From Actinomycetota bacterium (GTDB lineage Bacteria; Actinomycetota; Actinomycetes; Mycobacteriales; HKI-0501), in NCBI GenBank assembly GCA_030840805.1, contig JAVEDU010000110.1, positions 62,001 to 126,000 on the forward strand: a stretch of 64,000 nt of DNA, in the 5' to 3' direction. The position numbers and the translations under genes were made by a program. Under the pieces are notes generated by a model. The model searched no databases. It was given only the letters and a program-made list of their open reading frames with translations, and had not been told where the DNA came from. This document shows positions 21,526 to 23,881 of the stretch, piece by piece (within the stretch, counting starts at the first letter, position 1; each line of letters opens with the position of its first letter).

Positions 21526-22614
21526 TCACCGGACGAACCACGTACCGGTGCTGCCGCCGATCCGGCCGCGTTCGATCCGCTCCGGCCCGCGGTCCCGGTA
21601 CGAGGCGGCGAGGACGCCCGGCCAGTCGGCGCCCTCGTTCATCGCGATGCACGGGCTCCGGTACGGGCAGCGTCCGCAGTGCGCCCACGACGGCGTGGGG
21701 TACACCCGCAGCATCGGGTCGGTGATGTCCTGGGCGAGCGCCGCGAGCTGCTTGCCGAAGCCCTCCACCTCCGCGCGGCTCCGGGCGATCCTCGTCCGGC
21801 GGAAATGCTCGGTGGTCTGCTGGTCGACCACCTCGGTCGCGGGCCGGGGCGGCGGCGGCGGGCCGAACTCGTCGTACCGCCGGGTGTGCCGCTGCGGCCA
21901 CGCGTACGCCTCCGCGGGGTCGGGGACGGCGGGTGGCGGGGGCGGGTCGACGTCGATCCGCAGCTCGTTGTGGATCGTGCCGGCCACGGTCACCTTCGAG
22001 TAGAACTCCTCGCAGGCCCAGCACTGGGCGAGCGCCTCCTCGTCCAGCACGAGCTGGTCGAGATGCGCCCACCCGCCCTCGGCGAGCCGGTGCGTGACCA
22101 CCCAGAACTGGTCGGCGTCGTCCACCACCAGCAGCTCCAGCCGGTCGCGGTAGTACATCGTGTCGCCGTCCGGGGTCACCAGCCCGACCCCGCGGATGAC
22201 CGGGTCCGGGATGTTCACGTCCACGTCCATCTCGACGTGCAGGGTCTCGAAGTGGTCCACCGACTGCGCCCAGCGGAAGTAGCCGCGCAGCAGCGCGTCA
22301 CCGTGTTCCAGGGCCTCGGCCCAGTCCCGTTCCTCCGCCGGGGAGAACGGCCGGTGCGCCTCGTACCGCTCCCGCTGCGTGCGCATCGACTTGCCGAACC
22401 CCTCCAGCGCGATCGGCCGCACGATGCCACGGCTCCAGTCCCACATGGCGGGGAAGTAGTACACGGTGAGGGCGTACCGCAGCGCCTCCTCCAGATCGAA
22501 GGCGCGCGGCGGCGTGATCGGCTCGTAGTTCCCGCGCGCCCGCGAGCCGAAGTCCCACGCGCGGCGGCAGCGCTTGAACGTCGCCCGGTCCCAGTTCGTG
22601 ATGGTGTAGGTCAT
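21526..22614 (-). CDS. PD-(D/E)XK-like protein with Cas4/AddB-type cysteine set and altered active site
   Basis: A 362-residue soluble protein. It has Cys16 in ATFKRCRRAWDFG and a C-terminal C-X2-C-X5-C group (Cys313, 316, 322; HCGRCPYRSPC). This is the one-plus-three arrangement that binds a 4Fe-4S cluster in Cas4 and AddB exonuclease domains. The middle part YRDRLELLVVDDADQFWVV fits the beta strands carrying the nuclease motifs. The expected (D/E)xK is replaced by TH, so nuclease activity is doubtful. A proline-rich insertion (DPPPPPAVPDP, GPPPPPRP) lies near 230-270. The ATG at 22614 has AGGGGG nine bases upstream; an earlier start does not. No repair partner gene is adjacent. Fold assignment is by motif reading alone. 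Confidence 0.55.
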   Translation of the reverse strand: MTYTITNWDRATFKRCRRAWDFGSRARGNYEPITPPRAFDLEEALRYALTVYYFPAMWDWSRGIVRPIALEGFGKSMRTQRERYEAHRPFSPAEERDWAEALEHGDALLRGYFRWAQSVDHFETLHVEMDVDVNIPDPVIRGVGLVTPDGDTMYYRDRLELLVVDDADQFWVVTHRLAEGGWAHLDQLVLDEEALAQCWACEEFYSKVTVAGTIHNELRIDVDPPPPPAVPDPAEAYAWPQRHTRRYDEFGPPPPPRPATEVVDQQTTEHFRRTRIARSRAEVEGFGKQLAALAQDITDPMLRVYPTPSWAHCGRCPYRSPCIAMNEGADWPGVLAASYRDRGPERIERGRIGGSTGTWFVR

Positions 22615-22783
22615 GGGCACGGCCCCCTGCAGCGTCGGCTGACGCAATCGTGTGAAACCACACGGGTCCCGTCAACCGGTTCGCACACCCTTGCCGCCCC
22701 TCGGCCGCCCCAGTAGCGTCCGGCGAACGGAACCTCCGCGACCGACGGGCCGGTTCCCGGCCCTCTGGACGAAGAAGGCAGCA

Positions 22784-23881
22784 ATGGCGCTGACCCCTCA
22801 CCGTTCCCTCCGGACCGCCGTCGTGGCCGTCGTGTCGCTGCTGCCGGCCGTCGCCCTCCTCCTGGTGCCGACCGGCGCGCTCGCCGCGCAGGCGCCGGTC
22901 GGGCTCGGCACGGCCGGGAGCTTCGCGGTGCTGGCCGGCACCACCGTGACGAACACCGGGCCCACCGTGCTGGTCGGCGACCTCGGCCTGGAGCCGGGCA
23001 CCTCCGTGACGGGCGGACCGGTCGTTACGGGGTCCACGCACGTCCACGACGCGGTGGCGGCGCAGGCCCAGCACGACCTCGTCACGGCGTTCGACGACGC
23101 CGCCGGGCGGGCACCGGCGACCGCCGTCGCGGGTGACCTCGTCGGGCGGACCCTCGCTCCCGGGGTCTACCGGTCCACGTCGTCGCTGGGGCTGACCGGC
23201 ACGGTGACCCTCGACGCGGCCGGCGACCCGCAGGCGGTGTTCGTCTTCCAGATCGCCTCGACGCTGGTCACCGGCACGCAGAGCCGGGTGGCGATCATCA
23301 ACGGCGGGCAGGCCTGCAACGTGTTCTGGCAGGTGGGCAGCTCCGCGACGCTGGGTACCGGCAGCCAGTTCAAGGGCAGCATCCTGGCGCTGACCTCGAT
23401 CGCGGCCCAGACGGCGGCGACGGCGGAGGGACGGCTGCTGGCGCGGAACGGCGCGGTCACGCTCGACTCCAACACGATCACGCGTCCGGGGTGCACCACG
23501 CCGGGACCGACCCCGTCCGGCACCGTGGTGCCCGGGCCGACCGTCTCGACCACACCGAGCGCGACGCCGACGGGGTCCGGAACGCCGGCCCCGGTGCCGA
23601 CCGTGTCGCCGTCGGGGTCGGGGTCGCCGTCGGGGTCGCCGACCGCCGTGCCGACCCTGTCGCCCACCTTGTCGCCCAGTGCCGTGCCGACCGCGTCGCC
23701 GACCGGGGCGCCGTCCCCCTCGGTGCTGCCGTCGAGCGTCACCTCTCCCCCGGCGGGCGGGACGCTGCCCTCGACCGGACCGCGGGTGCCCCTGGCGGCC
23801 ATCGTCTCGCTGGCGGCCGGAGCGCTGCTGCTGGGAATCGTGCTACTGGCCCTCACCCGCCGGAGATCGGCGCGGCGGTGA
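22784..23881 (+). CDS. DUF3494 ice-binding-like protein with LPxTG cell-wall anchor
   Basis: A 365-residue exported protein. A signal peptide (1-35, cleavage near ALAAQA) precedes an ice-binding-like domain at about 38-240. Hallmarks are GTAGSFAVLAGTTVTNTGPT, the PQAVFVFQIASTLVT strand and NVFWQVGSSATLGTGSQFKG. A Pro/Ser/Thr-rich linker at about 240-325 (VPTVSPSGSGSPSGSP) leads to LPSTG (328-332), a hydrophobic helix and the basic tail RRRSARR, the sortase sorting signal. Ice-binding proteins of this type inhibit ice recrystallisation or attach cells to ice; some relatives act only in adhesion. The linker is a likely O-mannosylation target for Pmt. The ATG follows GAAGAAGG. It stands alone inside a patch of decayed genes. 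Confidence 0.88.
   Translation: MALTPHRSLRTAVVAVVSLLPAVALLLVPTGALAAQAPVGLGTAGSFAVLAGTTVTNTGPTVLVGDLGLEPGTSVTGGPVVTGSTHVHDAVAAQAQHDLVTAFDDAAGRAPATAVAGDLVGRTLAPGVYRSTSSLGLTGTVTLDAAGDPQAVFVFQIASTLVTGTQSRVAIINGGQACNVFWQVGSSATLGTGSQFKGSILALTSIAAQTAATAEGRLLARNGAVTLDSNTITRPGCTTPGPTPSGTVVPGPTVSTTPSATPTGSGTPAPVPTVSPSGSGSPSGSPTAVPTLSPTLSPSAVPTASPTGAPSPSVLPSSVTSPPAGGTLPSTGPRVPLAAIVSLAAGALLLGIVLLALTRRRSARR

Follow-up and report, generated by a model that had tools for sequence, protein, structure and literature searches.

A predicted iron-sulfur pseudo-nuclease family of Actinobacteria is associated with group 1h [NiFe]-hydrogenase genes

A gene in the window (the whole stretch of 64,000 nucleotides that was analysed) belongs to a protein family which shows a strong genetic association with the group 1h [NiFe]-hydrogenase (Hhy). 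We consider it likely, with a rough probability of 0.6, that the family arose from a phage-type Cas4-like exonuclease through loss of catalysis, with retention of the Fe-S fold, and now provides an accessory protein of this hydrogenase, with a role in assembly or redox. The hydrogenase link is weaker for the copy in the window, which has no linked hydrogenase genes. The features of this copy are listed in Table 1.

Table 1. Features of the predicted pseudo-nuclease gene in the window and their state in relatives
Feature	Coordinates	Strand	Remarks
Gene for the predicted Fe-S PD-(D/E)XK-fold pseudo-nuclease	21526..22614	-	362 aa
Cys16, first predicted [4Fe-4S] ligand, in the FKRCRR motif	22567..22569	-	Cys in 71/71 relatives and 12/12 viral homologues
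GxxxH position of active homologues, here E-E-A-L-R (residues 42-46)	22477..22491	-	Viral homologues all G...H; family G in 10/71, H in 16/71
Glu160, replacing the first active-site Asp	22135..22137	-	Family D in 53/71, E in 6/71; viral homologues all D
Degenerate (D/E)xK strand, WVVTHR (residues 171-176)	22087..22104	-	Acid replaced by Thr174, Lys by Arg176; His175 and Trp171 retained
Glu193, replacing the active-site Gln (DEQ motif)	22036..22038	-	Q in all viral homologues and in 16/71 of the family
Cys313-X2-Cys316-X5-Cys322, other three predicted Fe-S ligands	21649..21678	-	Invariant columns
Proline-rich low-confidence insertion (about residues 224-262)	21829..21945	-	Block with pLDDT 57-67; missing in four short relatives

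The open reading frame is free of internal stops, and the ATG at 22614 as start codon fits the N-terminus of the relatives, M-x-Y-x-I. The protein matches the phage family phrog_1218 ('exonuclease') from PHROG over most of its length (E 3.4e-14) and, in a tblastn search, a 'putative Cas system-associated protein' from Bacillus phage BSP7 (25.5% identity over 93% of the protein, E 2e-18). Outside the family, phage Cas4-family exonucleases are thus nearest in sequence, not AddB or YqaJ. Neither Pfam nor NCBIfam gave a match above cut-off: Pfam returned only PDDEXK_1 (E 0.017) and PEX11, and the NCBIfam model cas4 (TIGR00372) had an E-value of 0.041. The PDDEXK_1 and cas4 matches cover the C-terminal Cys region only. 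An identity as CRISPR Cas4 was ruled out because the TIGR00372 score is far below the cut-off (13.7 vs. 65 bits). A search of PDB sequences with a four-sequence profile gave no useful match.

The original prediction, made from the letters alone, was that of an Fe-S protein with the PD-(D/E)XK nuclease fold, an altered active site, and a proline-rich insertion. Modeling with AlphaFold2 on a 53-sequence family alignment (pLDDT 90.1, pTM 0.88) gave a structure of the AdnA/AddB/Cas4 type rather than a different fold. The VIA structural alignment of the model has Z-scores of 16.1 for AdnA (236 residues, 3.5 Å), 15.8 for AddB, 13.8 for the Cas4-family protein ACE1, 12.0 for Dna2, and 10.4 for Cas4; the nearest viral model was retrieved by Foldseek with an E-value of 1.8e-20. 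The model thus provides good support for assigning the protein to the Fe-S RecB/AddB/Cas4 branch of the PD-(D/E)XK fold. AddB and Cas4 have the same four-Cys Fe-S layout. The predicted Cys16 and C-terminal C-X2-C-X5-C are present, and all four residues (C16, C313, C316, C322) are invariant in 53 aligned relatives. In a larger set, three Fe-S Cys sites are conserved in 71/71, 70/71, and 70/71 sequences, the single gap being due to a frameshifted MAG copy. The insertion is also real; it is variable and poorly structured, with the pLDDT 57-67 block spanning about residues 231-260, and the short relatives lacking it are L049, L061, L066, and L069.

A single scan of species genomes yielded 77 family loci, and 71 members were aligned. 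Nearly all loci are actinobacterial (Pseudonocardiales, Mycobacterium, Nocardia, Geodermatophilaceae, and Acidimicrobiia MAGs), with one from a MAG labelled Chloroflexi. A second paralogue clade is characterized by an EHR motif (L007, L008, L010, L011, L013, L014, L016, L017, L018, L020, L028, L078, L079) and is found together with a hydrogenase-linked paralogue in about ten assemblies. Its neighbours at most loci, named by sequence reading, are propionyl-CoA carboxylase-like, biotin carboxylase-like, and acyl-CoA dehydrogenase-like genes; an endonuclease/exonuclease/phosphatase-like gene, named in the same way, is also near.

At least 25 of the relatives' loci carry two or more group 1h hydrogenase markers within 8 kb. 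The markers were HhyL (Pfam NiFeSe_Hases), the small subunit, a NifU-like protein fitting the published description of HhyE, DUF5947, the maturation protease, HypD, an AIR-synthase-type protein at the HypE position, and HypA/B/C/F. In Pseudonocardiales, the family gene belongs to the same operon and is located directly after HypE. The same-operon layout is exemplified by L030, with the order HypC-HypD-HypE-companion-gene. Mycobacterial family genes either diverge from HypA-HypB or converge with the protease gene, and those from Acidimicrobiia are found within the hydrogenase cluster. Divergent layouts occur at L051, L055, L067, and L071, convergent ones at L050 and L060. In the RefSeq entry of a Mycobacterium chimaera plasmid (NZ_CP012886.2), the family gene and its companion, both annotated as 'hypothetical protein', adjoin HypA and the group 1h cluster. 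This is a mobilizable plasmid of 438 kb, and its group 1h cluster adjoins NADH-quinone oxidoreductase (nuo) genes (L127, 372564-401544). In the phylogenetic tree, the hydrogenase-linked members are spread over many deep branches.

The companion gene codes for a protein of about 100 aa and is located directly upstream of the family gene in most linked and many unlinked loci. The protein has an invariant RCRW and a C-terminal ending of the PWPHxH type (L030:7671-7961, L067:7647-7979, and about 40 other loci). It had no Pfam match above cut-off and no significant fold match in PDB; its AlphaFold2 model has a pLDDT of 78.5.

From these data, we infer an accessory role in assembly or electron transfer. 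The actinobacterial family would descend from phage-type Cas4/AddB-like exonucleases, having lost the nuclease active site while retaining the fold and the predicted four-Cys [4Fe-4S] site. It would then most likely serve Hhy as a scaffold for assembly or maturation, together with the companion protein; we prefer this role because the family gene is placed beside hyp genes, with a redox or electron-relay function as second choice. For group 1h hydrogenases, the assembly proteins are unclear and the electron route to the respiratory chain is unresolved (PMC6883350). As these enzymes have no known electron-transfer subunit (PMC6883350), the protein might act, in the lineages where it occurs, as a redox partner which takes electrons from HhyS and delivers them to the respiratory chain. 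The invariant Cys ligands and the gene linkage to hydrogenase clusters are consistent with such a function. However, the Fe-S cluster is structural in AddB and Cas4, the gene occurs in only 7 of 78 genomes with HhyL, and the same hydrogenase clusters encode an existing candidate for this role, the NifU-like protein that matches HhyE. We thus regard a redox partner as rather unlikely. The family protein is not itself HhyE/HucE, as the NifU-like protein has a gene of its own in these clusters and a NifU domain is absent from the Pfam matches to the 362-aa protein.

The original prediction had also proposed, as one possibility, a non-nuclease protein that binds DNA. The altered active site was borne out; the tie of the family to group 1h clusters makes a hydrogenase-accessory role more likely than that of a DNA-binding non-nuclease. 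An Fe-S regulator or sensor that binds nucleic acids through the old DNA channel, and so controls genes for hydrogenase or starvation, would fit a fold of the DNA-processing type, a core that is retained despite the loss of catalysis, and the divergent layout in some mycobacteria. It is nevertheless improbable, since neither a helix-turn-helix nor another regulator signature was found in the 362-aa protein and nothing in Pfam or NCBIfam exceeds the cut-off.

The association with the hydrogenase extends to the genome level. Among 399 genomes of the order, seven have a full family member and all seven, the genome of the window among them, have HhyL with at least 76% identity. HhyL at 70% identity or more is found in 78 of the 399 genomes (hypergeometric P 9e-6, which is optimistic as the genomes are related). 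The family is missing from 71 of these 78 genomes and is thus not essential to Hhy, so that any function must be lineage-specific. In a set of 41 family-bearing genomes with mostly unlinked loci, the HhyL query was matched in 33, several matches being short or weak. All six named isolates with unlinked loci (Nocardia colli, N. altamirensis, Antrihabitans, M. moriokaense, M. agri, and Mycobacterium OAS707) have HhyL with at least 90% identity. The eight genomes of this set in which the query remained unmatched are all incomplete MAGs; one has DUF5947 plus HypD, a HypD fragment was found in another, and several had no hydrogenase hit. The two genome sets overlap (e.g., G415 and G152, with HhyL at the same place), and their counts are kept separate.

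In Ca. Mycobacterium methanotrophicum (L081), the genes for HhyL, the companion, and the pseudo-nuclease have decayed jointly: in the complete genome, an in-frame stop interrupts the companion, the family gene is cut short at about 56 codons, and HhyL is fragmentary. The family might still be a chance neighbour with an unrelated role, which merely shares genomic islands with hydrogenase genes. Many members are indeed unlinked, and the carboxylase-linked clade and the window copy are located elsewhere. Several independent layouts, the co-occurrence even when unlinked, and joint decay stand against this, and we consider it quite improbable.

The window copy was predicted to stand alone, and this is true locally. 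It is flanked by a PMT glycosyltransferase gene and an ice-binding-like (DUF3494) gene; the latter (22724-23881) is divergent from it and codes for a C-terminal region rich in serine, proline, and threonine. The claim that it lies in a patch of accessory DNA was not supported, as the checked neighbours are ordinary chromosomal genes (rsmI, a methionyl-tRNA-synthetase-like frame, tRNA-Ala) and the G+C content is unremarkable. Within the family, values of dN/dS are about 0.13-0.22 in 12 close pairs, indicating purifying selection and thus functional genes. A residue of a phage or mobile element is ruled out by the ordinary neighbours together with this selection.

The genome from which the window is taken has an hhy cluster on a different contig (C80) from that of the window gene (C93), which is its sole family member. 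The cluster codes for HhyS, HhyL, the NifU-like protein, DUF5947, two more cluster proteins, the protease (HupD), HypA, HypC, HypD, HypE, and, on the opposite strand, HypF. The reading frame of HhyL is open through its full length, and its best match among solved structures (1055 bits) is PDB 5aa5 (HofG) from Ralstonia eutropha, where HofG forms the large subunit of the actinobacterial-type hydrogenase. Only about 300 bp separate HypE from HypF here, at the place which the family gene occupies in relatives, and the companion had no match in this genome. In the tree, the window copy is sister (98/85) to an unlinked clade which is found beside acyl-CoA dehydrogenase and carboxylase genes. Because linked members are on deep branches, hydrogenase linkage is probably ancestral and was lost here. 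The window copy may be a relocated version which acts in trans on the C80 cluster; the linked members can be assigned a role with more certainty.

The degenerate (D/E)xK motif was predicted as VVTHRL, and the translation confirmed this (residues 172-177, with T-H-R at the site). In the 71 aligned relatives, the position of the catalytic Lys is R in 46, Q in 15, L in 4, H in 2, and I, C, S, or E in the others; K is found in none, so that its loss extends throughout the family. The preceding acid position is varied (R 22, E 16, Q 10, V 8, others). His175, the counterpart of the central residue in the phage EHK, is kept in 71/71, and Trp171 is likewise invariant. GxxxH and Gln are partly retained, mainly in one clade. 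In phage and IMG/VR homologues ('Cas4 family exonuclease'), G-x3-H, D, (D/E)xK, and Q are intact in 12/12. The absence of Lys from all 71 relatives, the conserved Cys and His, the purifying selection, and the intact site of the viral homologues make it well supported, at the level of sequence, that the whole family consists of pseudo-nucleases. Nuclease activity that persists through a catalytic residue which has moved or been replaced (K to R or Q) is highly improbable even though the carboxylase-adjacent (L007-type) clade retains H, D, E, and Q with K to R as its sole change, since a compensating Lys was looked for and is absent from the invariant columns of the family alignment, the K position is free to vary, and the window copy is altered at G, H, D, E, K, and Q. 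Caution is warranted when such proteins are annotated as exonucleases.

Through group 1h hydrogenases, soil actinobacteria can live on H2 taken from air, and this oxidation of atmospheric H2 is a major process in soil. A conserved, lineage-specific predicted Fe-S protein which co-occurs and co-decays with this enzyme is a directly testable candidate. We propose only tentatively that a viral exonuclease was recruited after losing its active site, with a previously unnoticed partner of about 100 aa, to serve group 1h hydrogenase specifically, either in Fe-S assembly or by carrying electrons, which would be the first Cas4/AddB fold in hydrogen metabolism. If true, a nuclease fold would have departed from nucleic-acid work altogether. 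Fold and hydrogenase are each already known, and their combination appears to be new; no description of a Cas4-like or PD-(D/E)XK protein tied to hydrogenase clusters was found in the open-access literature.

Among known systems, HhyE and HucE, iron-sulfur proteins which the mycobacterial hydrogenases require (PMC6883350), resemble the family protein in being putative Fe-S proteins encoded with group 1h hydrogenases. HhyE differs in being a protein with a NifU domain and CxxC. The nuclease domains of AddB and AdnA, and Cas4 (ACE1, Cas4-Cas1-Cas2), have the fold in common with the family protein (VIA Z 10-16) at 9-14% sequence identity, but they are active nucleases in recombination, CRISPR, or Argonaute contexts. 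The phage Cas4-family exonucleases (phrog_1218; Bacillus phages BSP7 and BSTP, Weizmannia phage Youna2) are alike in length and domain order, with 24-25.5% identity over 93%, and share the N-terminal Cys and the three C-terminal Cys, although with C-X3-C in these three phages instead of C-X2-C in the window protein. They keep GxxxH, D, (D/E)xK, and Q and are encoded in replication modules with a helicase or AAA-ATPase.
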